This document shows, piece after piece, positions 6,918 to 36,034 of a stretch of DNA of 64,000 nt. Each line of letters starts with the position of its first letter. Position 1 is the stretch's first letter. The translations under genes were made by a program, and so were the position numbers. The notes beneath the pieces are model-generated. The model was not told where the DNA came from, searched no databases, and was given only the letters and a program-made list of their open reading frames with translations. The stretch comes from Aquabacterium lacunae (lineage in GTDB: Bacteria > Pseudomonadota > Gammaproteobacteria > Burkholderiales > Burkholderiaceae_C), in NCBI RefSeq assembly GCF_004310865.1, contig NZ_SIXI01000001.1, positions 1 through 64,000 on the forward strand. The letters run 5' to 3'.

Positions 6918-7559
6918 ATGTCCTCTGTGCCCAACGCCCCCGACCGACGCCAGGAAGCCCTGAGCCCTCGCCAGCAGGAAGTCTGTGACCTGATCGTGGA
7001 AGGTCTGACCAGCAAGGCCATCGCCGAGCGCCTGGGCACCACTGTGCACACGGTCAAAGCCCACCGCGCCGAGGTGATGCGTCGCATGGGCGTCGATTCG
7101 GTGGCCGAACTGGTGAGGGTGTGCCTGGCCGAGCGTGACACCAACGCCCGAGTCAACGTCCTGCCGCCGGCGCAAGCGCCCCAGATCGAAGGCCCGATCC
7201 GCGTGCTGGTGGTGGAAGACCAGCCCCTGTTCCGCGACATGCTGACCAGCAGCCTGGCCGCCTTTGGCCATGTGGTGCGCAGCCTGGAAAACGGCCGCGA
7301 GCTGGAACGGGTGTTTGACGAGTTCCAGCCACACATCATCTTGCTGGATGTGAACCTGAACGCCGACGAAAACGGCCTGGACCTGGCCGTGCGCATCCGC
7401 CGTCGCAGCCGCTGCGGTGTGGTGTTCATGTCGTCCAACGGCCGCGTGGAAGACCGCGTGGCCGCATTGGAGCGTGGCGCCGACGCCTATTTCGTCAAGC
7501 CGATCAGCTTCGTCGAGCTGAACATGGCCCTGCGCAACCTGGTTCAGCGCCTGCACTGA
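6918..7559 (+). CDS. Regulator with N-terminal LuxR HTH and C-terminal receiver domain (reversed order)
   Basis: A 213-residue protein. Residues 14-72 are a LuxR/GerE-type helix-turn-helix (LSPRQQEVCDLIVEGL, TSKAIAERLGTTVHTVKAHR, MGVDSVAELVRV). Residues 94-213 are a CheY-like receiver (VLVVEDQ acidic pair, phospho-acceptor D144 in ILLDVNLN, S/T position in FMSSNG, K194 in YFVKP). The usual NarL/FixJ order is receiver first, so the domains are swapped. An in-frame stop at 6885 upstream shows that no receiver is hidden before the HTH. No kinase gene is adjacent; it is convergent with urtE 35 bp away. Target genes are unknown. Confidence 0.85.
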   Translation: MSSVPNAPDRRQEALSPRQQEVCDLIVEGLTSKAIAERLGTTVHTVKAHRAEVMRRMGVDSVAELVRVCLAERDTNARVNVLPPAQAPQIEGPIRVLVVEDQPLFRDMLTSSLAAFGHVVRSLENGRELERVFDEFQPHIILLDVNLNADENGLDLAVRIRRRSRCGVVFMSSNGRVEDRVAALERGADAYFVKPISFVELNMALRNLVQRLH

Positions 7560-7594: not shown

Positions 7595-8299
7595 TCAGAT
7601 CGACATCAGCTGGCGCACACCATCGGCTTCCATGCTGTCGCCACGACCTCGGCGGATGATTTCGCCGCGCTCCATCACCAGATACTGGTCGGCCAGCTCG
7701 GCTGCAAAATCGTAGAACTGCTCGACCAGAACCACCGCCATCTTCTGGCCATTCAGGCCTTCGTCGGCCAGCTTGCGGATGGCCCGCCCGATGTCCTTGA
7801 TGATGCTGGGCTGAATGCCCTCGGTGGGCTCGTCCAGGATCAGGATCTTGGGGCCTGCGGCCAGGGCTCGGGCAATGGCCAGCTGCTGCTGCTGCCCCCC
7901 TGACAAGTCGCCGCCTCGGCGATGCATCATCTGCTTGAGCACCGGGAACAGCTCGAACAGCTGCTCGGGCACCGGCGTGCTGCCCGGCTTGCTGGCCAGG
8001 CCCATCTGCAGGTTTTCAGCCACCGTGAGGCGCCCGAAGATTTCCCGCCCCTGGGGCACATAGCCCACGCCCAGGCGCACACGCTCGTAAGGCTTGAGCT
8101 TGTCGATGCCCTGCCCGTCCAGGCTGATGCTGCCTGACTTGATGGGCACCAGGCCCATCAGGCTCTTGAGCAAGGTGGTCTTGCCCACGCCATTGCGGCC
8201 CAGCACCACCGTGACCTCGCCCACCTTGGCCTCGAAATCCAGGCCACGCAAGATGTGCGAGCCCCCGTAGTACTGGTTGACGGCTTGAACTTTCAGCAT
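7595..8299 (-). CDS. urtE: Urea ABC transporter ATP-binding protein UrtE
   Basis: A 234-residue ATPase of the branched-chain-amino-acid/urea (HAAT) type. Walker A is VLGRNGVGKTTLLK, the signature is LSGGQQQQLAIARALAAGPKILILDEPTEG (signature plus Walker B) and the H-loop region is VVLVEQ. MLKVQAVNQYYGGSHILRGL is typical of UrtE, as are the EGIQPSII and YVPQGREIFGRLTVAENL segments shared with LivF. It pairs with UrtD to energise urea uptake at the inner membrane. Last gene of the urt cluster, 9 bp after urtD. Confidence 0.95.
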   Translation of the reverse strand: MLKVQAVNQYYGGSHILRGLDFEAKVGEVTVVLGRNGVGKTTLLKSLMGLVPIKSGSISLDGQGIDKLKPYERVRLGVGYVPQGREIFGRLTVAENLQMGLASKPGSTPVPEQLFELFPVLKQMMHRRGGDLSGGQQQQLAIARALAAGPKILILDEPTEGIQPSIIKDIGRAIRKLADEGLNGQKMAVVLVEQFYDFAAELADQYLVMERGEIIRRGRGDSMEADGVRQLMSI

Positions 8300-8308
8300 G
8301 TTGTCTCC

Positions 8309-9205
8309 TCAGCGGCCCAGGTAAACCTCGACGACCTTGTCATTGGCCTGCACCTCGGCCAGCGTGCCCTCGGCCAGCACCGAACCTTCGTGCAGCACGG
8401 TCACCTTCTTCTTGCCGGCGGTGGCACCCTGCGTGGTCAGCTCGTGGATGAACTTCATGTCGTGCTCGACCACCACCAGCGAATGCGCGCCTTCCAGCGA
8501 CAGGAACAGCTCGGCCGTGCGCTCGGTTTCTTCGTCGGTCATGCCGGCCACAGGTTCGTCCAGCAGCAGCAGCTTGGGGTCCTGCATCAGCAGCATGCCG
8601 ATCTCGAGCCACTGCTTCTGGCCATGCGACAGCAGACCGGCTGTGCGCTGGGCCTGGTCCTTCAGGTGGATCAGCTGCAGCATGGCCGAGATGCGGTCCA
8701 GCTGCTCACCGCTGAGCTTGAAGAACACCGAGGCACGGGCACGGCGGTCGGCCTTGAGGGCCAGCTCCAGGTTCTCGAACACGCTGAGGTGCTCGAACAC
8801 CGTGGGCTTCTGGAATTTGCGGCCGATGCCCTTTTGGGCGATGTCGTTTTCACGCATGGTCAGCAGGTTCAGCGTGGAGCCGAAAAACGCTGTGCCACTG
8901 TCGGGCCGGGTCTTGCCGGTGATGACATCCATCATGGTGGTCTTGCCGGCGCCATTGGGGCCGATGATGCAGCGCATCTCGCCAACCGCGATGTTCAGAC
9001 AGAGCTTGTTGAGCGCCTTGAAGCCGTCAAAACTCACCTCGATGTCGTCCAGGTAGAGGATGGAGCCGTGGGCCAGGTCCAGCGCCCCAGGTTCCAGCAC
9101 CCGCCCGTAACTGGCCTCACGCCCGCCCGATTCGCCCGCATTGGTGGGCGTGTTCATGGCCCGCACCAGCGTGCGGGCGCCTTCTTCCATCAGGTCGGGG
9201 GTCAT
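8309..9205 (-). CDS. urtD: Urea ABC transporter ATP-binding protein UrtD
   Basis: A 298-residue LivG-like ATPase. Walker A is IIGPNGAGKTTMMDVITGKTRPDSG, the signature is LLSHGQKQWLEIGMLLMQDPKLLLLDEPVAGMTDEE, and the H-loop is VVVEHDMKF. LSHGQ instead of LSGGQ is the usual UrtD signature. About 50 residues precede the ABC domain (MTPDLMEEGARTLVRAMN...), a common extension in this family. Its ATG overlaps the urtC stop by 4 bp (ATGA), so translation is probably coupled. Confidence 0.95.
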   Translation of the reverse strand: MTPDLMEEGARTLVRAMNTPTNAGESGGREASYGRVLEPGALDLAHGSILYLDDIEVSFDGFKALNKLCLNIAVGEMRCIIGPNGAGKTTMMDVITGKTRPDSGTAFFGSTLNLLTMRENDIAQKGIGRKFQKPTVFEHLSVFENLELALKADRRARASVFFKLSGEQLDRISAMLQLIHLKDQAQRTAGLLSHGQKQWLEIGMLLMQDPKLLLLDEPVAGMTDEETERTAELFLSLEGAHSLVVVEHDMKFIHELTTQGATAGKKKVTVLHEGSVLAEGTLAEVQANDKVVEVYLGR

Positions 9206-10341
9206 GCTTTCACCTCAGCGTTCTTGTTGAAGAGCTTGCGCACGCCGCCCACGATGCCCTGGGGCAGGTACAGGGTCACAGCCACGAACAGCGCGCCCAG
9301 GAAATACAGCCAGTACTCGGGGAACTCGACCGTGAACCAGCTCTTGGCGCCGTTCACGAAGAAGGCACCGATGATCGGGCCGATCAGGGTGGCCCGGCCA
9401 CCCACCGCCGCCCAGATGGCGATTTCGATGGACGCCGCCGCCGACATCTCGCTGGGGTTGATGATGCCCACCTGCGGCACATACAGAGCACCGGCAATGC
9501 CGCACATCACGGCCGACAGCGTCCAGATGGCCAGCTTGTAGGCCAGCGGGTTGTAGCCGCAGAACATGACACGGTTTTCGGCGTCGCGGATGGCTTGCAG
9601 CACGCGGCCGAACTTGGTGTTCACCAGCCAGCGGGCCATCAGGAAGAAGCCGATCAGCGTCAGGCCCGTGATGACGAACAACACCATGCGGGTAGACGGC
9701 TGGGCCAGCGGGATGTCCAGGATGCGCTTGAAGTCGGTGAAGCCGTTGTTGCCGCCGAAACCGGTTTCATTGCGGAAGAACAGCAACATGGCTGCAAACG
9801 TCATGGCCTGGGTGATGATCGAGAAATACACCCCCTTGATGCGGCTGCGAAAGGCAAAGAAGCCGAACACGAAGGCCAGCAGGCCAGGCACCAGCACCAC
9901 CAGCAGCATCTGACCGATGAAGCTTTCGCTCAGGGCCCAGTGCCAGGGCACTTCCTTCCAGTCCAGGAAAACCATGAAGTCGGGCAGGTCACTCTTGTAG
10001 CTGCCGTCACGCCCGATCTGGCGCATCAGGTACATGCCCATGGCATAGCCCCCCAGCGCGAAGAACAGGCCATGGCCCAGCGACAGGATGCCGGTGTAGC
10101 CCCAGATCAGGTCCATGGCCAGCGCACAAATGGCGTAGCACATGATCTTGCCGATCAGGGCCACGGCAAAGTCCGACAGATGCAAAGGCGAGCCCTCCGG
10201 CACCACCAGGTTCAGCAGCGGCACCAGCAAGGTCACGGTGATCACGGCGGCCATCAAAGCCGTCCAGCCCTTGGCGCCCAGGGCGCTGCGGGGGACGGTG
10301 ATGCCGGCCGTGGGAGAGATGGCATTCAGAACAGCACTCAT
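9202..10341 (-). CDS. urtC: Urea ABC transporter permease UrtC
   Basis: A 379-residue LivM-like inner-membrane permease with about ten hydrophobic segments. Conserved stretches include DLIWGYTGILSLGHGLFFALGGYAMGMYL and VGGRATLIGPIIGAFFVNGAKSWFTVEFPEYWLYFLGALFV. The ATG at 10341 is chosen because GAGGAG lies 7 nt upstream; an in-frame GTG at 10365 would start inside urtB. It forms the translocation channel with UrtB. Confidence 0.95.
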   Translation of the reverse strand: MSAVLNAISPTAGITVPRSALGAKGWTALMAAVITVTLLVPLLNLVVPEGSPLHLSDFAVALIGKIMCYAICALAMDLIWGYTGILSLGHGLFFALGGYAMGMYLMRQIGRDGSYKSDLPDFMVFLDWKEVPWHWALSESFIGQMLLVVLVPGLLAFVFGFFAFRSRIKGVYFSIITQAMTFAAMLLFFRNETGFGGNNGFTDFKRILDIPLAQPSTRMVLFVITGLTLIGFFLMARWLVNTKFGRVLQAIRDAENRVMFCGYNPLAYKLAIWTLSAVMCGIAGALYVPQVGIINPSEMSAAASIEIAIWAAVGGRATLIGPIIGAFFVNGAKSWFTVEFPEYWLYFLGALFVAVTLYLPQGIVGGVRKLFNKNAEVKA

Positions 10342-10351
10342 TTGTGTCTCC

Positions 10352-12013
10352 TCAGGCTTCGGCACTGCGGCCCTTCATGGCGAACAGACCTTGCGGGCGC
10401 TTCTGAATGAAGATCACCACGAAGACCAGCACAAAGATCTTGGCCAGCACGGCGCCGGTCCAGCCCTCCAGGAACTTGTTGATCATGCCCAGGCCGAGGG
10501 CTGCGTACACGGTGCCTGCGATCTGGCCCACGCCCCCGGTGACCACCACCATGAACGAGTCGACGATGTAGCCCTGCCCCAGGTCAGGGCCCACGTTGCC
10601 GATCTGGGAGAGCGCGCAGCCCGCCAGGCCTGCAATGCCGGCCCCCAGCGAAAAGGCCATGGTGTCGACCCGGGCGGTGTTGACACCCATGCACGAGGCC
10701 ATGGGGCGGTTCTGGGTGACCGAGCGCACAAACAGGCCCATGCGTGTCTTGTTGATCAGCAAGGTCATGCCCACCAGCACCAGCGCCGCGAACACGATGA
10801 TGGCCAGGCGGTTGTAGGGCAGCGTGAGGTTGCTGAACAGGTCATATCCGCCCGACATCCAGCTGGGGTTCTCGACCTGCACGTTCTGGGCACCGAACAC
10901 CGTGCGAACGGCCTGCATCAGGATCAGACTGAGGCCCCACGAGGCCAGCAGCGTTTCCAGGGGGCGACCGTACAGGAAGCGGAACACGGTGCGCTCCAGG
11001 GCGGCGCCGACCAGCGCAGAAGCCATGAAGGCACAAGGAATCGCCACCACCAGGTACCAGGCGAACTGGTCGGGCAGGTACTGGCGGAACAGGTTCTGGA
11101 TCACAAAGGTGGCGTAGGCGCCGATCATGATCAGCTCGCCGTGGGCCATGTTGATCACGCCCATCAGGCCGTAGGTGATGGCCAGACCCAGCGCGGCCAG
11201 CAGCAAGATCGATCCCAGGCTGATGCCGGTGAACAAAACACCCACGCGCTCGCCCCAGGCCAGCGTGGCGTTGACCTCTTCAAGGGCCATGCGCAGGGCC
11301 TGCTGCACGGCCTTGTCGGCTTCGCCGTCCTCGGCCAGGCGCTCCATCAGCAGGGCGCGAGCACCTGGGGTGCCCTGACCGCCCAGGGCCTGTGCGGCCT
11401 CGATGCGGCGCGCAGGATCTGCAGCCTGCAGCAAGGCCTTGGCGCGCACCGTCTCCAGTTGCGCTTTCAGGGCCGGATCCTGCTCGGCCGCCAGGGCCTT
11501 GTCGATGATGGGCAGCTTCGATTCATCTGCAGCGGCGGCCAGGGCCTCCACGGCCTCCTGGCGCAGCGCCACGTCGGGTGAGCCCAACTTGCCAGCGGCC
11601 AGGGCCGCCTCGATCTCGCTGCTCATCCGGTTGTTGTTGACCACGTCTTCCGCCCCCTCGGGCAGCGGCACGACCTGGCCTGTCACGGCATCCTTGGCGA
11701 CCTCACCGTCAACGATGAACACCTTCTGGCCGGCCACCTTCACGCTGTCAGCCATCAAGGCCTCCAGCAAGGGGCTCAGGGCCGGGTCATTCTTGGGCAG
11801 CAGCTTCTGCAGGGCAGCGATGCGGGCATCGTTGTCGCCGGCAGAAACCGACAAGGCCTCTTCCATCGTCAAGGCGTGTGCGCCAGTGGGCATCAGGGCC
11901 CCCAGCAGGCAGCTCAGGCTGCACGACACGCCCAAGGCCCAGCGTCGCCATGCGGCGGGCCGGGCTGCGGTCTCAGCGTTGTATCGGTTCACAGGTCGGT
12001 CCTTGTTCGCCAT
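10352..12013 (-). CDS. urtB: Urea ABC transporter permease UrtB
   Basis: From ATG 12013 (MANKDRPVNRYN...) the protein has 553 residues: an N-terminal hydrophobic signal-like segment ending PTGAHA, then a ~200-residue Ala-rich helical region with HEAT-like repeats (LLEALMADSVKVAG, EAVEALAAAADESKLPIIDKALA, DPARRIEAAQALG), then a LivH-like permease (ISLGSILLLAALGLAITYGLMGVINMAHGELIMIGAY...). The long periplasmic-type extension is usual in proteobacterial UrtB. An upstream in-frame start at 12112 is rejected because it would translate through the terminator at 12024-12062. It is 10 bp ahead of urtC. Confidence 0.95.
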   Translation of the reverse strand: MANKDRPVNRYNAETAARPAAWRRWALGVSCSLSCLLGALMPTGAHALTMEEALSVSAGDNDARIAALQKLLPKNDPALSPLLEALMADSVKVAGQKVFIVDGEVAKDAVTGQVVPLPEGAEDVVNNNRMSSEIEAALAAGKLGSPDVALRQEAVEALAAAADESKLPIIDKALAAEQDPALKAQLETVRAKALLQAADPARRIEAAQALGGQGTPGARALLMERLAEDGEADKAVQQALRMALEEVNATLAWGERVGVLFTGISLGSILLLAALGLAITYGLMGVINMAHGELIMIGAYATFVIQNLFRQYLPDQFAWYLVVAIPCAFMASALVGAALERTVFRFLYGRPLETLLASWGLSLILMQAVRTVFGAQNVQVENPSWMSGGYDLFSNLTLPYNRLAIIVFAALVLVGMTLLINKTRMGLFVRSVTQNRPMASCMGVNTARVDTMAFSLGAGIAGLAGCALSQIGNVGPDLGQGYIVDSFMVVVTGGVGQIAGTVYAALGLGMINKFLEGWTGAVLAKIFVLVFVVIFIQKRPQGLFAMKGRSAEA

Positions 12014-12023
12014 GTTCGAAATT

Positions 12024-12062
12024 GCAGAAAAAAAACGCCCCTCGGGTGACGCCCGAGGGGCG
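12024..12062 (-). terminator. Terminator/attenuator between urtA and urtB
   Basis: Reading the minus strand, a perfect 11-bp GC-rich stem (CGCCCCTCGGG ... CCCGAGGGGCG, 12036-12062) with a 5-nt loop is followed by a run of eight T (complement of 12028-12035). It sits 102 bp after the urtA stop and 11 bp before the urtB start. It should stop most transcripts after urtA, giving excess binding protein over the membrane components. Confidence 0.88.
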
Positions 12063-12163
12063 AACCGCTCTGCTTCATGGTTCATCCCGTCAGGCCTGGC
12101 GCCACGTGGCACCAGGCGCGAGGACGGGCACTCGCATCAGGCTGGCCCCAGGCCAGCCGAAGA

Positions 12164-13441
12164 TCACTTGCCTTCCGGCTCGTCCTTCTTCTTGTCGTTG
12201 CCAGGGATGTAGGGGCTCCAGGGCTGGGCCTTGACCGGGCCAGGGGTCTTCCAGACCACCTTGAACTGGCCGTCAGCCTTGACCTCGCCAATGAACACCG
12301 GCTTGTGCAGGTGGTGGTTCTTCTCGTCCATCTTGGACATGAAGCCGCCCGGGGCCTTGAAGGTCTGACCGGCCATGGCAGCAATGACCTTGTCGGTGTC
12401 GGTGCTGCCAGCCTTCTTGACGGCCTGGGCCCACATGTTGATGCCGATGTAGGTGGCTTCCATCGGGTCGTTGGTCAGGGGCTTGTCCTTGTGACCGGCG
12501 ATGTTCTTGGCCTTGGCGTAAGCCGACCACTTCTTGATGAACTCGTCGTTGGCGGGGCTCTTGACCGACATGAAGTAGTTCCAGGCGGCCAGGTGGCCCA
12601 CCAGCGGCTTGGTGTCCACACCGCGCAGCTCTTCTTCACCCACCGAGAACGCCACCACCGGCACGTCCTTGGCCTTCAGGCCCTGGTTGCCCAGTTCCTT
12701 GTAGAAAGGCACGTTCGAGTCGCCGTTGATGGTCGAGACCACGGCGGTCTTCTTGCCTTCCGAAGCGAACTTCTTGATCTTGCCGATGATGGTCTGGTAG
12801 TCGGAGTGACCGAAGGGGGTGTACTCCTCCATGATGTCCTCGTCCTTCACACCCTTGGACTTCAGGAAGGCACGCAGGATCTTGTTGGTGGTGCGGGGGT
12901 ACACGTAGTCGGTGCCCAGCAGCACGAAGCGCTTGGCCGAACCGCCGTCCTTGCTCATCAGGTACTCGACGGCGGGGATGGCCTGCTGGTTGGGGGCAGC
13001 ACCGGTGTAGAACACGTTCTTCTCGAGCTCTTCACCTTCGTACTGCACGGGGTAGAACAGCAGGCCGTTGTTTTCCTTGTAAACCGGCAGCACCGACTTG
13101 CGCGACACCGAGGTCCAGCAGCCGAAGGTCACGGCCACCTTGTCTTGCGTCAGCAGCTGCTTGGCCTTTTCGGCAAACAGGGGCCAGTTCGAGGCCGGGT
13201 CAACCACCACGGGCTCCAGCTTCTTGCCCAGCAGACCACCCTTGGCGTTGATCTCGTCGATGGCCATCAGGACGGTGTCCTTCAGCACGGTTTCCGAGAT
13301 GGCCATGGTGCCGGACAGCGAGTGCAGCACACCCACCTTGATGGTGTCAGCGGCCTGGGCCATGGTCGAGAAAGCCAGGCCAGCGACGCCCAGGGCGACT
13401 GCGGTGAGGGACTGGGCGGCGGCGCGACGGGTGATGTTCAT
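12164..13441 (-). CDS. urtA: Urea ABC transporter substrate-binding protein UrtA
   Basis: A 425-residue periplasmic binding protein starting with a signal peptide (MNITRRAAAQSLTAVALGVAGLAF...AQA, with a twin-Arg pair). The mature part begins ADTIKVGVLHSLSGTMAISETVLKDTVLMAIDEINAKGG and contains FGCWTSVSRKSVLPV, NGLLFYPVQYEGEE and ATYIGINMWAQAV, the hallmarks of UrtA in the LivJ-like family. An AAGGAG ribosome site lies about 10 nt before ATG 13441. It delivers urea to UrtBC. First gene of the cluster; the upstream intergenic region carries the palindrome at 13566-13583. Confidence 0.96.
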   Translation of the reverse strand: MNITRRAAAQSLTAVALGVAGLAFSTMAQAADTIKVGVLHSLSGTMAISETVLKDTVLMAIDEINAKGGLLGKKLEPVVVDPASNWPLFAEKAKQLLTQDKVAVTFGCWTSVSRKSVLPVYKENNGLLFYPVQYEGEELEKNVFYTGAAPNQQAIPAVEYLMSKDGGSAKRFVLLGTDYVYPRTTNKILRAFLKSKGVKDEDIMEEYTPFGHSDYQTIIGKIKKFASEGKKTAVVSTINGDSNVPFYKELGNQGLKAKDVPVVAFSVGEEELRGVDTKPLVGHLAAWNYFMSVKSPANDEFIKKWSAYAKAKNIAGHKDKPLTNDPMEATYIGINMWAQAVKKAGSTDTDKVIAAMAGQTFKAPGGFMSKMDEKNHHLHKPVFIGEVKADGQFKVVWKTPGPVKAQPWSPYIPGNDKKKDEPEGK

Positions 13442-13565: not shown

Positions 13566-13583
13566 ATACGCCACATGGCGTAT
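13566..13583. promoter_or_regulatory. Candidate operator: 18-bp inverted repeat upstream of urtA
   Basis: ATACGCCA-CA-TGGCGTAT is a perfect 8-bp inverted repeat with a 2-nt centre. It lies 125 bp upstream of the urtA start and 85 bp upstream of the divergent DUF1275 gene. The half-site TACGCCA has the size and TAC start of sites bound by LuxR/NarL-type regulators, and a LuxR-type response regulator is encoded at 17650-18624; the link is inference. No convincing sigma-54 site was found in 13442-13667. Confidence 0.5.
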
Positions 13584-17649: not shown

Positions 17650-18624
17650 TCAGCGCATCTTCAAAGCGGCTACCCGGCTCATGGCCAGGCCGGCCGCGGC
17701 GGTGCGCGTTTCAACGCCCAGCTTGGCGAAGATGTGTTCCAGCTGCTTTTTGACGGTGGCCGGGCTGCTGCCCAGGATGTCGCCGATGTCGCGGTTGGTC
17801 TTGCCCTTGACCACCCAGTACAGGACTTCACCCTCACGGGCCGTGAGGCGGAACTCCTGGGTGATGGCGTCAATGGCGGCCTGGTCAGAGCTCTCGCGCA
17901 TGACCAGCAACCATTCGTCGTCGCCCACAGGCTCATGCAAAGCCACGGTCAGGCGCCGTGCGGCCTGGTTCACCACCCACTGCGGAGCGGCGGGCAACAC
18001 CCCGGCCGCCTCGCCCCCCATGGCGCTCAAGGCTGCGGAAACCTCGGCCACGGCACCTTGCAGCCAGATCACCAGCTCTTCAGGGGCCACCGATTCGGGT
18101 GCATCGAACCACGACAGCATCAGCTTGCGCGCCAGCGGGGTCTGCCACAGCACCCGGCCATCGCTGACCCGTACCGTGATCGAGGCATGGCCGAAGGCAT
18201 CGAGGGCGTTGCGGGCCTGCCGTGCCTGTCGCGCGCTCTGCATGTGGGCTTCGATGCGGGCCAGCACCTCGCGAGGACGCAGCGGCTTGACCACGTAATC
18301 GACCCCACCGGCCTGAAAGGCCGCCACCACGTGCTCGGTCTCGGACAGGCCGGTCATGAACACGATGGGGATGTGGGCGGTTTCCCCCTGGGCCTTCAGG
18401 CGCCGCGCCACCTCGAAACCGTCAATACCCGGCATGACGGCATCCAGCAAGATGATGTCGGGCACCACTTGCGCCGCGCGCTGCAGCGCGGCTTCCCCGT
18501 GCGTGGCGACCAGCACGGTGTAGCCGGCCTCATCGAGGGCGTCGTGCAGCAAGGAGAGATTCTCCGGCACATCGTCCACGATGAGCACGACATCGGTGCG
18601 GCTGCGATCGAGGCTCTCAAGCAT
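17650..18624 (-). CDS. LuxR-type response regulator paired with the NCS1-hybrid kinase
   Basis: A 324-residue protein from ATG 18624. Residues 11-130 form a receiver (VVLIVDDVPENL, phospho-acceptor D61 in ILLDAVMPGIDG, T in FMTGLSE, K in YVVKPLRP). A middle ~120-residue region (VSDGRVLWQTPLARKLML...) looks like a degenerate PAS-type sensor. Residues ~255-324 are a LuxR HTH (FRLTAREGEVLYWVVKGKTNRDIGDILGSSPATVKKQLEHIFAKLGVETR). It follows the hybrid kinase gene by 81 bp on the same strand, so it is the natural partner. Given the flanking urt and urease clusters, a role in urea or nitrogen-compound control is likely but inferred. An in-frame TTG at 18657 is an alternative start. Confidence 0.88.
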   Translation of the reverse strand: MLESLDRSRTDVVLIVDDVPENLSLLHDALDEAGYTVLVATHGEAALQRAAQVVPDIILLDAVMPGIDGFEVARRLKAQGETAHIPIVFMTGLSETEHVVAAFQAGGVDYVVKPLRPREVLARIEAHMQSARQARQARNALDAFGHASITVRVSDGRVLWQTPLARKLMLSWFDAPESVAPEELVIWLQGAVAEVSAALSAMGGEAAGVLPAAPQWVVNQAARRLTVALHEPVGDDEWLLVMRESSDQAAIDAITQEFRLTAREGEVLYWVVKGKTNRDIGDILGSSPATVKKQLEHIFAKLGVETRTAAAGLAMSRVAALKMR

Positions 18625-18705: not shown

Positions 18706-21700
18706 TCATGGCGCCTCAGCCGCTTGTTCGGTGCCCCCCGGTTTGGAGGCCTGCTGAGCCAGCGCTGCGCCCACCGCCGAGGCCAGCAGATCAAGCTGAA
18801 AGCCTTTGGCCATGAGCCGCAGACGCTGCACAAACGCTTGAGCGCCTGGCTCGGCCGCCGCGATGCGGTCCAGTGCCTTGTGGATGCCGCGCACATAGCC
18901 CGTGTGGATCTGCTCTTCCAGCTCGCGCAGGTGGGGCTCGCTGGGCAGGGTTTCGGGCAGATCGGCCTGCATCGGCGTACGCACCGTGCGAGGCTGCACC
19001 GGATCGGCCTCGATCCACTGCAGTTGAAGGCGCCGACCCAGCCAGTCGAGCAACTCGCTCACGCGCACCGGCTTGACCAGGAAGTCTTCTGGTGTGATTC
19101 CCACATCGTTGTCCAGTCCCTTGTCAAACGCATTGGCCGAGACGATGGCTGCCGGCGCCTGGCTCAAAGCCTCCTGGTGGATGGCCCTCAGGGTGGCCCA
19201 ACCGTCCAGCCCCGGCATGGCCAGGTCCATGAACAAGGCATCAGGCATCAAGGCCGACGGACCATTGCGCAGGTGCAGCAAGCATTCATCCCCCGAGGCA
19301 AAGGTCTGCACCTCGAAACCCAGCGGCGTGAGGATGCGCAACAGCAGGCCGCGGTCGGCCTCCTCGTTGTCGACCACCCACACACGCCGGCGCTCGCCCA
19401 CATAGCCCGTGCGCTGCCCACGCACGGCCGGTCGCTCGCCCAGGCTGGCACGCACCTGCGGCAGAAACAGCCGGATGCGGAACAAAGTGCCCTGCCCCAC
19501 CTGGCTGGTCACCGTCATCTCGCCCCCCATCAGGTCGGTCAGCATTTTGGAGATCGTCAGACCCAGCCCTGTGCCGCTGGCCGAGGCTCCGGCGGCCGAT
19601 GAGCCCCGCGCAAAGGGCTCGAAAATGCGGGCCAGCTCATCGGGCGCAATGCCAGGGCCGGTGTCCGAAATGTCGATCTGCGCCATCTCGCGGGCATAGC
19701 GCACCTTGAAGCTCACCTCGCCCTGGCTGGTGAACTTCACGGCGTTGCCCAGCACATTGATGAGGATCTGGCGCACGCGGCGTTCGTCGGCTCGAACTGC
19801 CTCCGGCAGGTGGGGGTCGATGTCGGCCACAAAGCGCAAGCCCTTGCTGCGCGCCTCGTGCGCGCTCAGGCTGGTGATCTGGTCCAGCAGGTCGGCCAGA
19901 CGCACGGGGCGCGGCTCCAGCGTGAGCTTGCCGCTTTCGATGCGGGCAATGTCCAGCGTGCCCTCGATCAGCGAGAGCAGGTGGTCGCCTCCACGCTTGA
20001 TGATGCCCACCCCGTGTCGCACATGCTCGGGCAAGGCCTGGTCTTCGTCGAGCAGCTGCGCATAGCCCAGGATGGAATTCAAGGGCGTGCGCAACTCGTG
20101 GCTGATGGTCGAGATGTAGCGGCTCTTGGCGTGGTTGGCCTGATCGGCCTGCTGCTTGGCCTGCTGCAGCTTTTCGTCGGTGATGCGGTGCGACTCGATC
20201 TCGCGCACCAGCAGGTGGGTCTGCCGGTTCGACTCTTCCTGGGCCACCTGCCGGCTTTTGTGGGCCAGCACCAGCCACCAGCCCAGCACCCCGGCCACCA
20301 GCAGCAGCACCGAGAACACCTTGAGCAGCGCGCCCTGCAGCCAGTCGGTCATGTCGGTGGCCGACAGCATCATGCCCACATCAAGATCACGCACCTGCTG
20401 CTGGTAGACCATGCCGAACAAGCCGCCCAGCAAGGCCGACATCACCACCATCACCAGCAGGAAATGGCCCAGCTCGGTGTCCAGCCGGTGCCACAGACGC
20501 TCGGGCAACAGGCGGCGAGCCACGGCGCGCCACTGGTCAGACCACCGAGCCTGCGGCTTGCAAAGGTCTTGGCAGCGCGCATCGAGCGAGCAGCACAAGG
20601 AACAGATGTACCCCTGGTAAGCCGGGCAATGGGCGGTGTCGTCGGCTTCGTACTCGCCCTCGCACACCGTGCAGCGGTGCAAGGCCTTGATGCGGATGAC
20701 CTGGCTGAGCGGCCGACCCTCCGGCCAGGGTGACAAGGGCGCGCGGGCCAGGTAGTAACGCCCCTTGGTTCCCCAGGCCAGCAAAGGCGACACCACCAGC
20801 GCCGTGACCAGGGCAATCAACGCCGAAAAAGCCTGGGCCATTTCACCCATCCAGCCCACGTAGGCCACCACCGACAGCAAAGAGGCTGCCCCCATGGCCC
20901 CCACCCCCACCGGGTTGATGTCATACAGGTGGGCGCGCTTGAACTCGATGCCTGGCGGCGACCAGCCCATGGGCTTGTTGATGACCAGGTCGGCCACCAC
21001 GGCCATCATCCAGGCAATGGCCACGTTGGAATACAGGCCCAGCACCTTGCCCAGCGCCTGGAACACGTTCAGCTCCATCAGCATCAGGGCGATGAGGGTG
21101 TTGAACACCACCCACACCACCCGGCCCGGGTGGCTGTGAGTGAGGCGCGCAAAGAAGTTCGACCAGGCCAGCGAACCGGCGTAGGCGTTGGTGACATTGA
21201 TCTTGAGCTGAGAGATCACCACGAACAGGGCCACCGCCGCAATGGCCCAGGTCTGGTTGGGGAAGATCTTTTCCCAGGCCACCAGGTACATCTGATTGGG
21301 GTCAAGCGCACGGTCGATCGGCACGGCGAACTGGATAGCCAGGAACGCCAGCAACGCCCCGCCCAGCATCTTCAGCACCCCGGGAATGATCCAGCCTGGC
21401 CCGCCCATGAACACGGCGGCGTACCAGCGCACACGCCTGCCGCGGCGTTCCTCCGGCATGAAGCGCAGGTAGTCGGCCTGCTCACCCATTTGCGTGATCA
21501 GGGCAATGCCCACCGTCATGGCCGTGCCGAAGCCCAGCCAGTCGAAGCCCGGGTGGTCGCCATCGCCACCGGCATAGGCCGACAGATCACTCCAGATGTT
21601 CGGGTGGTCACGGAACACATAGATGAATGGCAGCACCAGCATGACCAGCCAGATCGGCTGAGTGATGAGCTGCAAGCGGCTGATGGTGGTCACACCATGG

Positions 21701-22242
21701 GTGACCAGCGGGATGACCACCACCGCGCAGATCAGGTAGCCCCAGGCTGGCGGGATGTCGAAGGCCAGCTCCAGGGCATAGGCCATCACGGCCGCCTCCA
21801 GCGCAAAGAAGATGAAGGTGAAAGAGGCGTAGATCAGCGAGGTGATGGTCGAGCCGATGTAGCCAAAGCCCGCCCCCCGGGTGAGCAAGTCCATGTCGAC
21901 CCCATGCCGCGCGGCATAGACGCTGATGGGCCAGCCGGCCAGCAGGATGATCAGGCCGGTGGCCAGGATGGCCCAGAACGCATTGACGAAGCCATGCTCG
22001 ACCAGCAGCGTGGCCCCCACAGCCTCCAGCACCAGGAAAGAGGCCACCCCGAAGGCGGTGTTGGCCACGCGCCATTCGGTCCAGCGGCGGGCCGAGCGGG
22101 GCGTGAAGCGCAGGGCATAGTCTTCCAGGGTCTCGGTGGCGACCCAGCTGTTGTAGTCGCGCCGCACCTTGATGACCCGCTGCAGGGCCTGCCCGCCGGC
22201 ATCTTCACCGGAAGGCTGTGCATCTTGGTCTGGCTTTTGCAT
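18706..22242 (-). CDS. NCS1-transporter / Cys-rich / hybrid histidine kinase fusion
   Basis: From ATG 22242 the protein has 1178 residues. Residues ~30-500 are a multi-spanning transporter domain of the NCS1 type (WRVANTAFGVASFLVLEAVGATLL, RHGVDMDLLTRGAGFGYIGST, SQLKINVTNAYAGSLAWSNFF). Residues 524-561 hold eight Cys (HRCTVCEGEY ... HC ... IC ... LCC ... RC ... DLC), a likely metal or redox module. Two more membrane helices, a coiled coil, HisKA with H715 in [19 protein letters not shown], HATPase (NVLGNAVKF, DTGPGI, GTGLGLTISK) and a receiver with D1006 (LFMDLAMPGLDG) follow, then a ~110-residue helical tail. By analogy with CbrA, the transporter part may sense or carry the signal ligand. 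Divergent from ureA with 51 bp between starts. Confidence 0.9.
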   Translation of the reverse strand: MQKPDQDAQPSGEDAGGQALQRVIKVRRDYNSWVATETLEDYALRFTPRSARRWTEWRVANTAFGVASFLVLEAVGATLLVEHGFVNAFWAILATGLIILLAGWPISVYAARHGVDMDLLTRGAGFGYIGSTITSLIYASFTFIFFALEAAVMAYALELAFDIPPAWGYLICAVVVIPLVTHGVTTISRLQLITQPIWLVMLVLPFIYVFRDHPNIWSDLSAYAGGDGDHPGFDWLGFGTAMTVGIALITQMGEQADYLRFMPEERRGRRVRWYAAVFMGGPGWIIPGVLKMLGGALLAFLAIQFAVPIDRALDPNQMYLVAWEKIFPNQTWAIAAVALFVVISQLKINVTNAYAGSLAWSNFFARLTHSHPGRVVWVVFNTLIALMLMELNVFQALGKVLGLYSNVAIAWMMAVVADLVINKPMGWSPPGIEFKRAHLYDINPVGVGAMGAASLLSVVAYVGWMGEMAQAFSALIALVTALVVSPLLAWGTKGRYYLARAPLSPWPEGRPLSQVIRIKALHRCTVCEGEYEADDTAHCPAYQGYICSLCCSLDARCQDLCKPQARWSDQWRAVARRLLPERLWHRLDTELGHFLLVMVVMSALLGGLFGMVYQQQVRDLDVGMMLSATDMTDWLQGALLKVFSVLLLVAGVLGWWLVLAHKSRQVAQEESNRQTHLLVREIESHRITDEKLQQAKQQADQANHAKSRYISTISHELRTPLNSILGYAQLLDEDQALPEHVRHGVGIIKRGGDHLLSLIEGTLDIARIESGKLTLEPRPVRLADLLDQITSLSAHEARSKGLRFVADIDPHLPEAVRADERRVRQILINVLGNAVKFTSQGEVSFKVRYAREMAQIDISDTGPGIAPDELARIFEPFARGSSAAGASASGTGLGLTISKMLTDLMGGEMTVTSQVGQGTLFRIRLFLPQVRASLGERPAVRGQRTGYVGERRRVWVVDNEEADRGLLLRILTPLGFEVQTFASGDECLLHLRNGPSALMPDALFMDLAMPGLDGWATLRAIHQEALSQAPAAIVSANAFDKGLDNDVGITPEDFLVKPVRVSELLDWLGRRLQLQWIEADPVQPRTVRTPMQADLPETLPSEPHLRELEEQIHTGYVRGIHKALDRIAAAEPGAQAFVQRLRLMAKGFQLDLLASAVGAALAQQASKPGGTEQAAEAP

Positions 22243-22293: not shown

Positions 22294-22596
22294 ATGGAAC
22301 TCACCCCACGCGAAAAAGACAAGCTGCTGATCTTCACGGCAGCGCTCCTGGCCGAGCGCCGCAAGGCCCGGGGCCTGAAGCTCAATTACCCGGAGGCCGT
22401 GGCCCTGATCACGGCCGCCATCATGGAAGGCGCACGAGACGGCAAGACCGTGGCCGCCCTCATGAGCGACGGCAAGACCGTGCTCACCCGCGAAGACGTG
22501 ATGGACGGCGTGGCCGAGATGATCCCGGAAATCCAGGTGGAAGCCACCTTCCCGGATGGCACCAAGTTGGTGACAGTGCACCAACCCATTGCATGA
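22294..22596 (+). CDS. ureA: Urease gamma subunit UreA
   Basis: A 100-residue protein matching the urease gamma subunit end to end: [84 protein letters not shown]. It assembles with UreB and UreC in the cytoplasmic urease trimer. First gene of the operon; ureD, often found just upstream, is replaced by the divergent kinase gene. Confidence 0.97.
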
Positions 22597-22698
22597 CCGG
22601 TCACCGAATCTCCATCACACACCACCTTTGTGCACTTAAGGCGTCTTGACGCCCTATCCTGAAACACATTCGCCGCCCTGAGCATCCGAGGCACCGAC

Positions 22699-22869
22699 AT
22701 GAAGCACCGCAACCGATTCCTTCTCGCCGCGCTGACAGCACCGGCCCTGGTACACGCCCATGAGGGCCATGGCCTGCCTGGCCTGTCGCACTGGCATTCG
22801 ACCGACGTGCTGGGTTTTGTGGCCATTGTGGCGGTGGCCTTTCTCGTATGGCACGGGGGGCGCAAGTGA
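22699..22869 (+). CDS. 56-residue His-rich membrane microprotein between ureA and ureB
   Basis: ATG 22699 opens a 56-codon frame with a GAGG sequence about 9 nt upstream. [20 protein letters not shown] is a signal peptide; the next residues [16 protein letters not shown] carry five His, and [15 protein letters not shown] is one membrane span before a basic end (HGGRK). Its stop overlaps the ureB GTG start (GTGA), which supports a real, translationally coupled gene. The His pattern recalls the N-terminus of HupE/UreJ nickel permeases, which occupy this operon position in some relatives; this could be a reduced form or a separate metal-binding peptide. Function unproven. Confidence 0.75.
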
Positions 22870-23183
22870 GCGCGGGCCTCGTGCCGGGTGAACTGCTCAC
22901 CGACGGGCCTGACCACGACCTCAATCTCGGGCGGCGCACGCTGACGCTGGTGGTGGAAAACGGCGGTGACCGCCCCATCCAGGTCGGCTCGCACTACCAC
23001 TTCGCCGAAACCAACGGCGCACTGAAGTTCGACCGTGACGCCGCCCGCGGCATGCGCCTGAACATCGCATCGGGCACCGCCGTTCGCTTCGAGCCGGGGC
23101 AGCAGCGCACCGTTGAACTGGTTGACTACAGCGGCGACCGCACCGTTTACGGCTTCCGCGGCCTCGTCCAGGGCGCGCTCTGA
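22866..23183 (+). CDS. ureB: Urease beta subunit UreB
   Basis: From GTG 22866 the protein has 105 residues: [46 protein letters not shown], then [29 protein letters not shown], the urease beta core. GTG is chosen because GGGGGG lies 5 nt upstream and the start overlaps the upstream stop; ATG 22848, in frame, would add six residues and lie inside the preceding gene. It is followed by ureC after 31 bp. Confidence 0.95.
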
Positions 23184-23214
23184 GCCCTGCCGCCACCCAC
23201 AGCACCCACACACC

Positions 23215-24942
23215 ATGGCAAGCATTCCGCGACGCGCCTATGCCGAGATGTTCGGCCCCACGGTCGGTGACCGTGTCCGTCTGGCCGACACCAACCTGAT
23301 CATCGAGGTCGAAAAGGACTTCACCCTGGCCGCTGGCGGCTATGGGGAAGAAGTCAAGTTCGGCGGTGGCAAGACCATCCGCGACGGCATGGGCCAGAGC
23401 CAGCGGGTCAACGGACCAGGCCCCGGCGACGCCTGCGACTGCGTGCTCACCAACGCCCTGATCATCGACCACTGGGGCATCGTCAAGGCCGACATCGGCA
23501 TCAAGGCCGGCCGCATCGTCAAGATCGGCAAGGCTGGCAACCCCGATGTGCAACCGGGCATCGACATCGTCATCGGCCCCGGCACCGAGATCATCGCGGC
23601 CGAAGGCATGATCGTCACCGCAGGCGGCCTGGACACCCACATCCACTTCATCTGCCCGCAGCAGATCGAAGAAGCCCTGAACAGCGGGGTGACCACCATG
23701 ATCGGCGGGGGAACCGGCCCGGCCACTGGCACCTTCGCCACCACCTGCACACCTGGCCCGGACAACATCGCCCTGATGCTCAAGGCCGCCGAGGCCTTCC
23801 CCATGAACCTGGGCTTCCTGGGCAAGGGCAACGCCAGCCAGCCCGAGGCCTTGCGCCAGCAGGTGAATGCCGGGGTGATTGGCATGAAGCTGCACGAAGA
23901 CTGGGGCACCACCCCAGCCGCCATCGACTGCTGCCTGAGCGTGGCCGAAGAAACCGACATCCAGGTGGCCATCCACACCGACACGCTGAACGAATCGGGC
24001 TTTGTGGAAGACACCGTGGCCGCATTCAAGGGCCGCACCATCCACAGCTTCCACACCGAAGGCGCGGGCGGTGGCCACGCCCCGGACATCATGAAAGTGG
24101 TGGGCGAGTTGAACGTGCTGCCATCGTCGACCAACCCCACGCGGCCTTTCACGGTCAACACCATCGACGAGCACCTCGACATGCTCATGGTGTGCCACCA
24201 CCTCGATGCCAGCATCGCAGAAGACCTGGCCTTTGCCGAAAGCCGCATCCGCCGGGAAACGATTGCCGCCGAAGACATCCTGCACGACCTGGGTGCCATC
24301 AGCATGTTCAGCTCCGACTCGCAGGCCATGGGCCGTGTGGGCGAAGTGATCATGCGCACCTGGCAAACCGCCCACAAGATGAAGGCGCAGCGCGGCAAAC
24401 TGCCCGGTGACACCGACCGCCACGACAACTTCCGCGTGAAGCGCTACGTGGCCAAATACACCATCAACCCGGCACTGGCCCACGGCGTGTCCCACGAAGT
24501 GGGCAGCGTGGAAGAAGGCAAATGGGCCGACCTGGTGCTGTGGAAGCCCGCGTTCTTTGGCGTCAAGCCCAGCCTGATCCTCAAGGGTGGCTTCATTGCC
24601 GCAGCGGCCATGGGTGACCCGAACGCCTCGATCCCCACACCGCAACCGGTGCATTTCCGCCCCATGTTCGGCAGCTTCGGGGGTGCGCTGCACCGCAGCT
24701 CGATCACGTTCATGAGCCAGGCTGGCATCGCCGCGGGCCTGCCTGCGCAACTGGGCCTGAAGAAGCAGATCGTGGGCGTGAAGGGCTGCCGCACCGTCAA
24801 GAAGACCGACATGGTGCACAACGCCTACCTGCCCAAAATGGAGATCGACGCCCAGACCTACCAGGTGCGCGCCGACGGCGTGCTGCTGACCTGCGAGCCG
24901 GCCACCAGCCTGCCCATGGCCCAACGCTACTTCCTGTTCTGA
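23215..24942 (+). CDS. ureC: Urease alpha (catalytic) subunit UreC
   Basis: A 575-residue catalytic subunit that hydrolyses urea to ammonia and carbamate at a dinuclear nickel site. Nickel ligands include H142 and H144 in [11 protein letters not shown] and the carbamylated lysine K225 in [12 protein letters not shown]; the active-site flap has C327 and H328 in MLMVCHHLD. The start [26 protein letters not shown] is the standard urease alpha N-terminus, so ATG 23215 is preferred to in-frame starts from 23113 that lie inside ureB. Length is typical of bacterial UreC. Confidence 0.98.
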
Positions 24943-24956
24943 GCGACACTGGGCGC

Positions 24957-25679
24957 ATGCTGACCGTCAACAAACTCCTTCCGCAAGGCCAGGGCCTGGC
25001 CGCCGTGCTGCTCAAGCGTGCAGCCACCGTGCAACTCGACTGGGACGTGCGCCAGAAAAGCCGGTTTGACGCCACCGACAGCCAGGGGCGCACCCTGGGC
25101 GTGTTCCTGCCGCGCGGCACCGTGGTGCGTGGCGGCGATGTGCTGGTGGCTGAAGACGGCTCCATGATCCGCGTGGACGCCGCCCCGCAGCCGGTGCTGG
25201 TGATCACGCCATGCAGCGCCCACGGCAGCCCCTTCGACCTGACCCGCGCGGCCTACCACCTGGGCAACCGCCATGTGCAGATCGAATTGCGCCCCGACCA
25301 CCTGAAGATCGAGCCTGACCACGTGCTGGCCGACATGCTGACGGCCATGCACCTGACGGTGGTGGCCCAGGAGGCGCCGTTCGAACCCGAAGCGGGCGCA
25401 TACGCAGCGGGGCACGGCGGTGGGCACCACCACGGACACAGCCACGGGCACGATCACGACCATGCCCCCCACGCCCACGCCCACGCGCCCGCCAGCGCCC
25501 ACGTGCACGGTCCCGGTTGTGGGCACGACCACAGCCGCGACCATGAACACGGTCATGAACACGGGCACACGCACGCACCGGCTGCTGCAGCGCCCGTGCG
25601 TGGCAAGCCGCTGGGCATCCCGGTCAAAGGTGAGACCAAACCCCACGTTCACGGCCCGGGCTGCGGCCACGACCACTGA
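24957..25679 (+). CDS. ureE: Urease accessory protein UreE with long His-rich tail
   Basis: A 240-residue nickel metallochaperone. The N-terminal part ([36 protein letters not shown]) and central metal-binding domain ([14 protein letters not shown] with the conserved His) match UreE. From about residue 145 the tail is packed with His, Asp and Gly in motifs such as [14 protein letters not shown] and HGPGCGHDH (twice, with a Cys in each). The tail should bind several nickel ions and extends the protein well beyond the ~160 residues of tail-less UreE. It lies 14 bp after ureC. Confidence 0.96.
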
Positions 25680-25682
25680 GCC

Positions 25683-26453
25683 ATGCCCCAGGTTGTACCC
25701 CGCGCGACACCGCTGAGTGCCGCCACCCGCCTGCAGCTGATGTGGCTGGCCAGTCCGGCCCTGCCTGTGGGTGGATTCAGCTACTCCGAAGGCCTGGAAG
25801 CCGCGGTGGACACCGGCCGCGTGCACGATGAGGCCTCGGCCCGTGCCTGGCTGGTGGACCAGCTGCACCTGAGCCTGGCGAGGGCCGACCTGGCCGTGAT
25901 GGCCGCCGCCGTGCCCGCCTGGCAGCGCCAGGACATGGACCGCGTGCGTGAACTCAACGACTGGGTGGTGCACACGCGCGAAACCAGCGAACTGCGCCTG
26001 CAAGCCGAGCAGATGGGCCGCTCTCTGGTGGAATGGCTTCGTCAGCGCACGGGCGAGGCCAGGCAAGAGGCCAGCGACACCCGCCTGGCCCAATGCGCGG
26101 CCCTCCAGCCCGCCCCCACTTGGCCCGTGGCCTTTGCGCTGGCCGTGGCCCAGTGCCTGCCACCATCGGGTTCGGGCAGCGCGCACGCCACCCAGGGCGC
26201 TGCGCAGGTGCACGAGGCCTTGCTGACCTTTGCCTTTGGCTGGGCCGAGAACATGGTGCAGGCCGCCATCAAGTCGGTGCCGCTGGGTCAGACCGCTGGC
26301 CAGCGCATCCTTCAATCCCTGATCGAGGCCATTCCCGAGGCCATCGACCATGCCCTGTCGCTGCCTGACAGCCAGCGGCAGGCCTTCACCCCCATGCTGG
26401 CCATCCTCAGCAGCCGGCACGAAACCCAGTATTCACGACTGTTCCGATCATGA
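25683..26453 (+). CDS. ureF: Urease accessory protein UreF
   Basis: A 256-residue all-helical accessory protein: [27 protein letters not shown] is the conserved UreF N-terminal motif, and [16 protein letters not shown] the C-terminal one. UreF with UreD and UreG forms the complex that loads nickel into apo-urease and gates GTP hydrolysis. Its start follows the ureE stop by 3 bp, and its stop overlaps ureG by 4 bp. Confidence 0.94.
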
Positions 26454-27097
26454 GCGCACTGCACAACATCCCCGGCCGCACCAAGAAACTGCCCCCGCTG
26501 CGCGTGGGCGTCGGCGGCCCCGTGGGCTCAGGCAAGACCACCCTGCTGGAAATGCTCTGCAAGACCATGCGCAACACCTACGACCTGGTGGTCATCACCA
26601 ACGACATCTACACGAAGGAAGACCAGCGCCTGCTGACCGTGGCCGGCGCGCTCGACCCGGACCGCATCATGGGCGTGGAAACCGGTGGCTGCCCGCACAC
26701 CGCCATCCGTGAAGACGCTTCCATCAACCTCGAAGCGGTCGACCGCATGCTGGCGCGTTACCCCGATGCCGACATCGTGTTCATCGAGTCGGGCGGGGAC
26801 AACTTGGCGGCCACCTTCAGCCCTGAACTCAGCGACCTGACGGTCTATGTGATCGACGTGGCCGCAGGCGAAAAGATCCCGCGCAAAGGCGGACCGGGCA
26901 TCACCAAGAGCGACCTGTTCGTGATCAACAAGACCGACCTGGCACCCCACGTGGGTGCCAACCTCGAGATCATGGAAAGCGACACGAAGCGCATGCGCCC
27001 CACCCGCCCCTTCGTGATGACCAATCTGAAGACCCAGTCGGGCCTTCAGGATGTGATCGCCTTCATCGAAACCAAGGGGCTGCTCAAGGCCGCCTGA
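26450..27097 (+). CDS. ureG: Urease accessory GTPase UreG
   Basis: A 215-residue SIMIBI-class GTPase. The P-loop is GPVGSGKT (residues 23-30); [12 protein letters not shown], the nickel-binding CPH motif in [37 protein letters not shown] and the NKTD guanine-specificity motif are all intact. It supplies GTP energy for nickel delivery to UreC. The 3' end overlaps the convergent histidine kinase gene by 14 bp, and no terminator separates them. Confidence 0.98.
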
Positions 27098-35290: not shown

Positions 35291-36034
35291 ATGAAACTCG
35301 CGCTGATGTCCGACCTGCACGGCAACCGGCAGGCCACCGAAGCCGTCTGGCAGTTCCTGCTGGAACAGGGCTTTGACCAACTCGCCTTGCTGGGTGACTA
35401 TGTCGACTACGGCGCAGACCCCGGCTGGGTGTGCGAATTCGTGCAGGCGCGAATGGCCGAGGGTGCGGTGGCCCTGATGGGCAATCACGACGAAGCGATG
35501 GTGAGCAGCGGGGCGCAGGGCATGGCAGACCATGTGCTGCCCTCCCTGCAATGGACCCGCACGCAGCTCTCCCCTGCACAACGGCAGTGGCTGGCCAGCT
35601 TGCCTCTGACTGCACAGGTGGGGCCTTGTCACCTGGCCCATGCCAACACGCACCGTCCTGGCGACTGGGGCTACATCCTGGGCCGTATGGACGCTGCCGC
35701 CAGCCTGCACGCCAGCCCGGCTCCGTACGTGTTCTGTGGCCACATGCACGAGCCGCAGCTTTTCCACCTCACGCCCACGGGGAAAACGGGCGACTTCACG
35801 CCGGTGGACGGCGTGCCCATCCCACTGTCACCGGCCCGGCGATGGCTGGCCATACCGGGCTCGGTGGGACAACCCCGTGACGGCAACCCCGCTGCCTGCT
35901 GCGCACTGTTTGACACCGATTCAGGCACGCTGACTTTCCACCGCGTACCCTATGACCATGCCGAAGCCAGCCGCCGCATCCAGGCAGCGGGGCTGCCGGC
36001 CTTCCTCTCTGAAAGGTTGCTGCATGGCCGATGA
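35291..36034 (+). CDS. Calcineurin-like metallophosphoesterase
   Basis: A 247-residue phosphoesterase with all dimetal motifs: DLHGN, GDYVDYG, GNHDE, AHANTH and GHMHEP. It resembles the YfcE/PrpE-like group that acts on phosphoproteins or small phosphodiesters. Its last 11 bp overlap the start of the Ser/Thr kinase gene, so the two are translationally coupled and may act as an opposing kinase/phosphatase pair (inference). Confidence 0.88.
   Translation: MKLALMSDLHGNRQATEAVWQFLLEQGFDQLALLGDYVDYGADPGWVCEFVQARMAEGAVALMGNHDEAMVSSGAQGMADHVLPSLQWTRTQLSPAQRQWLASLPLTAQVGPCHLAHANTHRPGDWGYILGRMDAAASLHASPAPYVFCGHMHEPQLFHLTPTGKTGDFTPVDGVPIPLSPARRWLAIPGSVGQPRDGNPAACCALFDTDSGTLTFHRVPYDHAEASRRIQAAGLPAFLSERLLHGR

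Follow-up and report, generated by a model that had tools for sequence, protein, structure and literature searches.

In the histidine kinases CbrA and CrbS, the transporter domain is of the SLC5 type and carries a STAC linker (PMC13022988, PMC5715377, PMC7918813), and RpuS/R is a further sensor kinase system of the SLC5-STAC kind (PMC9100948). CrbR, a LuxR-type partner, needs an inverted repeat, the ACTU motif (PMC5715377). Here we analyzed a stretch of 64,000 nucleotides from Aquabacterium lacunae (contig NZ_SIXI01000001.1, positions 1 to 64,000), hereafter called the window, which encodes a hybrid sensor kinase, P0001, together with a LuxR-type response regulator, P0002, and urease and urtABCDE genes (Table 1). 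Like CbrA, CrbS/MxtR, and RpuS, P0001 is a single chain in which a small linker domain connects an N-terminal transporter-derived domain to a histidine kinase, and the CbrA-like architecture that a first-pass annotation of this DNA had proposed was borne out by the Pfam matches and by the link to a stand-alone permease discussed below. The parts are different, however. The SLC5-STAC kinases have an SLC5 domain with 13 helices, STAC, and PAS, whereas P0001 has an NCS1-like domain, an eight-cysteine module, two helices, and no PAS domain, and its neighbors are urea and amide genes. The SSF (SLC5) and STAC domains are absent from its Pfam matches, which comprise only the kinase, the receiver, and sub-threshold ones. 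The regulator likewise resembles CrbR in being a LuxR-type partner with a candidate inverted-repeat operator, but the operator sequence differs from that described for CrbR (PMC5715377). By analogy, the logic of the sensor appears to be that of CbrA and CrbS.

Judged from sequence comparisons, the sensor probably signals when urea or amide uptake genes are to be turned on. We consider it reasonably likely that the system as a whole consists of a transporter-derived sensor of urea and short-chain amides that activates uptake through its regulator and a palindrome. The permease fold, which would derive from an NCS1-kind permease for urea or short-chain amides, would bind urea or, in a sister branch, amides; a ligand-dependent conformation would be passed through the cytosolic eight-cysteine metal module and the two extra helices to the hybrid histidine kinase, which would set the phosphorylation of the adjacent LuxR-type regulator. 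The regulator would in turn bind a 16-bp palindrome, TACG-N8-CGTA, upstream of uptake genes and activate them, the targets being urtABCDE here and, for a paralogous sensor of the same genome, an amide-type operon and an amidase gene. We infer the ligand (urea or an amide), the binding of the palindrome by P0002, and activation as the outcome. The family, its architecture and neighborhoods, the conservation of the cysteines, the palindrome and its position, and the absence of the palindrome at urtA in nine genomes lacking the system were obtained by computation.

The sensor belongs to a family that is spread over Alpha-, Beta-, and Gammaproteobacteria. Relatives were found in 72 of 399 genomes of the same order and, by a profile search, in 54 of 398 genomes across the phylum (the two genome sets partly overlap); a scan of GTDB contigs yielded nine close relatives, and none of the 277 stretches of viral contigs that matched a pattern encoded one. 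In plasmids, tblastn detected relatives of the domain in 543 of 72,556 records, 342 of which were from Klebsiella. On one Klebsiella IncFIB plasmid (NZ_MH745929, L154), the sensor is accompanied by a urtABCDE operon of the amide type and by a formamidase of the CN-hydrolase kind. The window's own genome holds a second copy of the sensor, a paralogue with 58% identity over the N-terminal part. Residue conservation was read from an alignment of 76 proteins (the window's sensor, 8 from the GTDB contig scan, and 67 from the order survey), which omits L011 and L088 to L093 as partial or nonfusion proteins and in which contig ends truncate L065 and L075. Not all members share the same kinase part: L083 and L084 encode hybrids of about 1400 amino acids, L085 and L086 encode apparently receiver-less proteins of 925 amino acids, and L177 and L178 hold open frames of 894 and 899 amino acids, with the four shorter variants all lying near fmdA and fmdB.

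Gene neighborhoods tie this family to urea and amides. The 76 first-round loci were fetched with a maximum of about 10 to 12 kb per side, often less at contig ends, and include one stand-alone protein (L088). Sixty-two of them contain ureC (29) or a urtA gene, either close (17) or distant and amide-type (29), and 70 encode a homologue of the regulator on the sensor's strand. In a larger set of 99 fusions (the window, 75 first-round loci, 17 of 20 phylum-survey regions, and 6 plasmid records, an uneven sample that omits L149, a split match, and L155 and L159 to L161, which are not fusions of this kind), 86 lie near urease, urt, or fmd genes: 42 near fmd only, 33 near ure or urt without fmd (12 with both, 11 with ure, and 10 with urt), and 11 near ure and fmd. 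Chance adjacency was estimated, not computed, at a few per cent from 30 sensor-positive genomes (FmdA in 21 and UreC in 30, mostly as a single match). The connection to urea genes that the first-pass annotation had drawn from the adjoining urease, whose ureA starts 51 bp from the sensor start, is supported in the family, and the random placement relative to urea genes that it had proposed looking for was not observed. The amide-type neighbors encode a urtABCDE-like ATP-binding cassette transporter, an AmiE-like CN hydrolase, a zinc ribbon of the FmdB type, and a formamidase (PF03069). The family holds urea-linked and formamide/amide-linked branches. Because both branches exist, urea and short-chain amides together are the putative ligand class. 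The fmd label changes 10 times on the tree, compared with 32.0 times in shuffles, none of 500 of which was as low; the window's branch of 44 rows (Shimodaira-Hasegawa-like approximate likelihood ratio test, 100) is rich in ure and urt, with 7 rows having fmd and 9 having none. The tree was built by a quick method, and long branches leave its deep order unsure.

The second line of evidence is the palindrome. We gathered 89 regions of 41 to 330 bases that precede a urtA, amide-type urtA, or ureA gene, and TACG-N8-CGTA was present in 19 of 22 urtA and 33 of 43 amide-type urtA regions (52 of 65 combined) and in none of the 24 ureA regions in its exact form. Each other spacer from 0 to 16 occurred at most once among the 89, and shuffles averaged 0.17 and never exceeded 2. 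The fetched loci, 1.9 Mb in all, hold 77 sites, of which 69 fall no more than about 420 bases upstream of a urtA-type, formamidase, amidase, or sensor gene. Only three exact sites occur in the window's genome: one precedes urtA, one stands in the gap separating the paralogous sensor from its amide-type urtA, and one is located about 80 bp upstream of a gene for an AmiE-like protein. A weight matrix that was built including the window site scored that site at 24.8 and the next-best place in the window at 4.9. The uptake operon is hence the predicted direct target, and urease is not predicted to be a strong one, since the window's only strong site precedes urtA and none of the 24 ureA regions carries the exact form. 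Of the earlier proposal that the sensor may govern both urt and urease, this retains the urt half, as predicted control, and leaves the urease half without an exact site. Elsewhere, the palindrome is found 97 bp upstream of urtA in Sinorhizobium meliloti and, in Acinetobacter, inside a 156-bp gap between the fusion and a divergent stand-alone cousin of its own N-terminal domain.

The site also tends to accompany the sensor where the two genes are apart. In sensor-positive genomes whose urtA lies outside the fetched neighborhood (at least 20 kb away or on another contig), the exact site was present at 7 of 11 close urtA genes and missing at L181, L182, L186, and L187; in the genomes of the latter two, the known sensor belongs to the amide branch. 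In sensor-negative genomes, none of nine close urtA genes has it, and one has a version with a single mismatch. Fisher tests gave a p of 0.005 for 7/11 versus 0/9 and of 2.6e-5 for 26/33 versus 0/9, values that serve as guides only since the rows are related. Within the window's family, the site was present in all six examined sensor-positive genomes with a close urtA and in neither of two negative ones. In four genomes with neighborless sensors (G363, G111, G388, and G205), a urtA far from the sensor carries an exact site, as though the system acted on it in trans.

Several observations weigh against this reading. The palindrome was first spotted by eye within part of the set in which it was then counted. 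The exact site is missing at 10 of 43 amide-type urtA genes, four of which (L162, L166, L167, and L170) have TGCG in place of TACG, and at 3 of 22 urtA genes; six amide-type urtA genes of one sensor-positive family (L190 to L192 and L194 to L196) lack the exact site, and no exact site was found in the fetched stretches of L083 to L086, L177, and L178. Of nine neighborless sensors whose genomes were examined, only the four named above have an exact site at a distant urtA, and five do not. Genome-wide counts of TACGY-N6-RCGTA are alike in sensor-positive (1 to 16) and sensor-negative (0 to 12) genomes, and thus only the position of a site is informative. Among the 99 fusions, 13 have no urea or amide neighbors at the thresholds used, including L158, which has annotated urt genes below threshold, and at L107 (4255-9367) the sensor lies beside genes read as nifHDK, with L108 encoding a near-identical sensor; a urtA located elsewhere in the L107 genome carries the palindrome.

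The single 1178-codon frame of P0001 and the HisKA, HATPase, and receiver domains noted previously were all recovered by Pfam and alignment: H715 is invariant in 76 of 76 proteins, and 72 of the 76 have Asp at position 1006, which identifies a hybrid histidine kinase. No HPt domain was among the Pfam matches of the full protein, and the receiver may for this reason serve tuning rather than relay. The eight cysteines and the two helices that follow them were likewise confirmed by alignment and hydropathy. P0002 has the receiver and GerE domains of a NarL/LuxR response regulator. AlphaFold2 gave a predicted local distance difference test (pLDDT) score of 39 for sensor residues 1 to 675 with nine sequences, too low for that model to be of use, and of 50 for P0002 from a single sequence.

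The origin of the N-terminal domain is less direct to read. Residues 1 to 511 have no Pfam match at an E value of ≤10, PF02133 (NCS1) is matched by none of 45 fusion-family members, and the window's own genome has no match to it at 0.001. A stand-alone relative from Klebsiella, P0003, is 42 to 43% identical to the window domain, matches PF02133 at 1.1e-9, and is encoded directly after ureG in a urease operon; a fusion profile aligned to E. coli CodB by hhalign at E=2e-4 over 148 columns, with a probability of only 47. Since P0003 bridges the two and the CodB alignment agrees, sequence comparison places the sensor domain as a remote NCS1 relative through an intermediate rather than directly, and the fusions differ from NCS1 permeases in being below Pfam recognition and in carrying a cysteine module and a kinase. 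The NCS1-type domain of some 12 helices proposed earlier therefore stands as remote homology, without a direct PF02133 match and with 11 clear helices before the cysteine module and a twelfth, at about residues 238 to 256, that is weak and below the hydropathy threshold. Sequence searches of the PDB returned no transporter match for the N-terminal domain, the A1 and A4 profiles, P0003, or P0005; zinc-finger matches (E of 2 to 3) and RING/PHD matches (E of 0.2 to 0.6) were dismissed as being at chance level. Two further stand-alone relatives are P0004 from Tsukamurella, which is separated from fmdA by two genes and has no Pfam match, and the distant P0005 (26% identity), which matches PF02133 and sits in a hydantoinase cluster. 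At L153:8941-10548, a Klebsiella NCS1-type permease with a four-cysteine tail, annotated as a cytosine permease, follows ureG and is a candidate urea permease. The fusions and four stand-alone permeases have 53 invariant positions in common, which is compatible with a retained ligand site, and urea-linked and amide-linked members differ at positions 71, 173, 247, 262, 280, 316, 378, and 415.

Each of the cysteines at positions 524, 527, 539, 547, 550, 551, 557, and 561 is invariant in all 76 aligned proteins. When all six frames were scanned less strictly, 99 of 102 loci showed the pattern, the misses (L091 to L093) being distant stand-alone permeases, and hence in all 99 other fusion loci. 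P0003 and the Acinetobacter cousin, which have no kinase, end a few residues after a CxxC...CSLC tail whose four cysteines align with C524, C527, C547, and C550; the aligned stand-alone proteins offer no equivalent of C539, C551, C557, and C561. P0004 has lost most tail cysteines, and P0005 has a CxxC...CxxC tail. We infer from this pattern an ancestral Cys4 metal tail, probably for zinc, which gained another set of four cysteines as the permease turned into a receptor. The module presumably faces the cytosol, given some twelve helices before it and the kinase inside, and it may hold zinc and act as a coupler.

It was previously suggested that the cysteine cluster could add nickel or redox sensing suited to the control of a nickel enzyme; on such a reading, the sensor would govern urease directly. 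The presence of UreC in 29 of the 76 fetched loci and a weak variant of the palindrome at 8 of 24 ureA regions (four of them near-identical loci) would fit such a role, but the ureA of the window lacks even the weak variant, the exact form is found at none of the 24 ureA regions, members that adjoin formamidase operons and whose fetched stretch contains no urease gene keep the eight cysteines equally well, and a four-cysteine form ends a stand-alone permease. We regard this reading as very unlikely, and nickel sensing by the cluster was abandoned on the last two counts. Sensing of a nucleobase or allantoin, which had been listed beside urea, was also rejected: the urea part of that proposal agrees with the neighbors, which are urea and amide genes, and only the distant P0005 lies in a hydantoinase cluster. 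A broader role, in which the system controls nitrogen or carbon metabolism in general, its neighbors reflect linkage, and the palindrome belongs to another regulator, could account for the 13 fusions without ure, urt, or fmd neighbors and for the pair L107 and L108, the former beside genes read as nifHDK, and the tie between regulator and palindrome is one of co-occurrence alone. We consider this improbable given that the neighbors are specifically urea or amide genes and that the site distinguishes close urtA genes with the system (26/33) from those without it (0/9; p=2.6e-5, related rows), as it does within the window's family (6/6 versus 0/2).

A sensor of urea and short-chain amides, as preferred here, could still be read in two ways. 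The domain may be a working transporter, making the protein a true transceptor that responds to flux or to internal ligand and not simply to occupancy, as is debated for CbrA; this departs from the preferred reading solely in the nature of the signal, and we give it a tentative, minority standing. UhpC, a separate major facilitator superfamily protein that acts on a kinase, is a transporter-homologue receptor that controls the genuine transporter UhpT, and it illustrates that transporter-like receptors can retain a site without transport. The Acinetobacter pair of fusion and stand-alone cousin is arranged in a similar way, except that receptor and kinase form one chain. The 53 positions shared with the stand-alone permeases speak for transport, as does the description of CbrA as a histidine transporter (PMC13022988, PMC7918813).

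Table 1. Positions of the sensor system and its neighboring genes in the window
Feature	Positions	Strand	Details
Hybrid sensor kinase gene, P0001	18706..22242	minus	1178 codons; ATG at 22242, stop at 18706
NCS1-like transporter domain, ~residues 40-500	20743..22125	minus	via relatives and hhalign; Pfam silent directly
Eight-cysteine module, residues 524-561	20560..20673	minus	cysteine conservation in alignment
Two extra helices, residues 594-612 and 642-660	20263..20463	minus	hydropathy
HisKA, residues 705-771, with H715	19930..20130	minus	PF00512, 2.9e-17
HATPase_c, residues 819-927	19462..19788	minus	PF02518, 1.2e-27
Receiver, residues 954-1066, with D1006	19045..19383	minus	PF00072, 7.1e-13
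LuxR-type response regulator gene, P0002	17650..18624	minus	Response_reg 1.6e-27, GerE 7.7e-14; downstream of sensor
Palindrome TACG-N8-CGTA, candidate operator	13567..13582		125 bp upstream of urtA
urtABCDE	7595..13441	minus	Pfam; close to annotated urt genes of named records; predicted target operon
Urease ureA, B, C, E, F, G	22294..27097	plus	Pfam; ureA diverges from sensor

The exact start of the sensor gene is putative, with an alternative in-frame TTG at 22584, and that of P0002 is an ATG at 18624 with TTG 18657 as the alternative; from the end of the regulator gene to the start of urtA is 4.2 kb. Neither the regulator gene (18624..17650) nor the palindrome (13567-13582) figured in the first-pass annotation. 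A tblastn search of the window with one UreD query found no ureD. Past the end of urtE, on the opposite strand, a gene at 6918-7559 (+) encodes a LuxR-type helix-turn-helix followed by a receiver, in inverted order, and has a counterpart at the same place in L003 (49% match). A gene at 35952-37466 (+) encodes a fusion of a universal stress protein domain with a serine/threonine protein kinase domain.

In summary, we lean slightly toward the view that these proteins form a widespread two-component family whose sensor arose from an NCS1-type permease for urea or short-chain amides, with a Cys4 tail becoming Cys8 on fusion to the kinase. It would form a dedicated circuit responsive to urea and amides, in which TACG-N8-CGTA is the operator for the uptake of both and for amidases in Alpha-, Beta-, and Gammaproteobacteria and, in Acinetobacter, even for the sensor's stand-alone cousin. 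No description of an NCS1-kinase fusion was found in the open-access library searched, within the terms used, and the family is apparently undescribed so far. If this view is correct, many soil, water, plant-associated, and clinical bacteria would possess a dedicated sensor of urea and short-chain amides, and kinase-fused transceptors would include a second kind of transporter besides SLC5. The sensor would have evolved from the same sort of permease that it may control, and a 16-bp operator would make its regulon readable from sequence.

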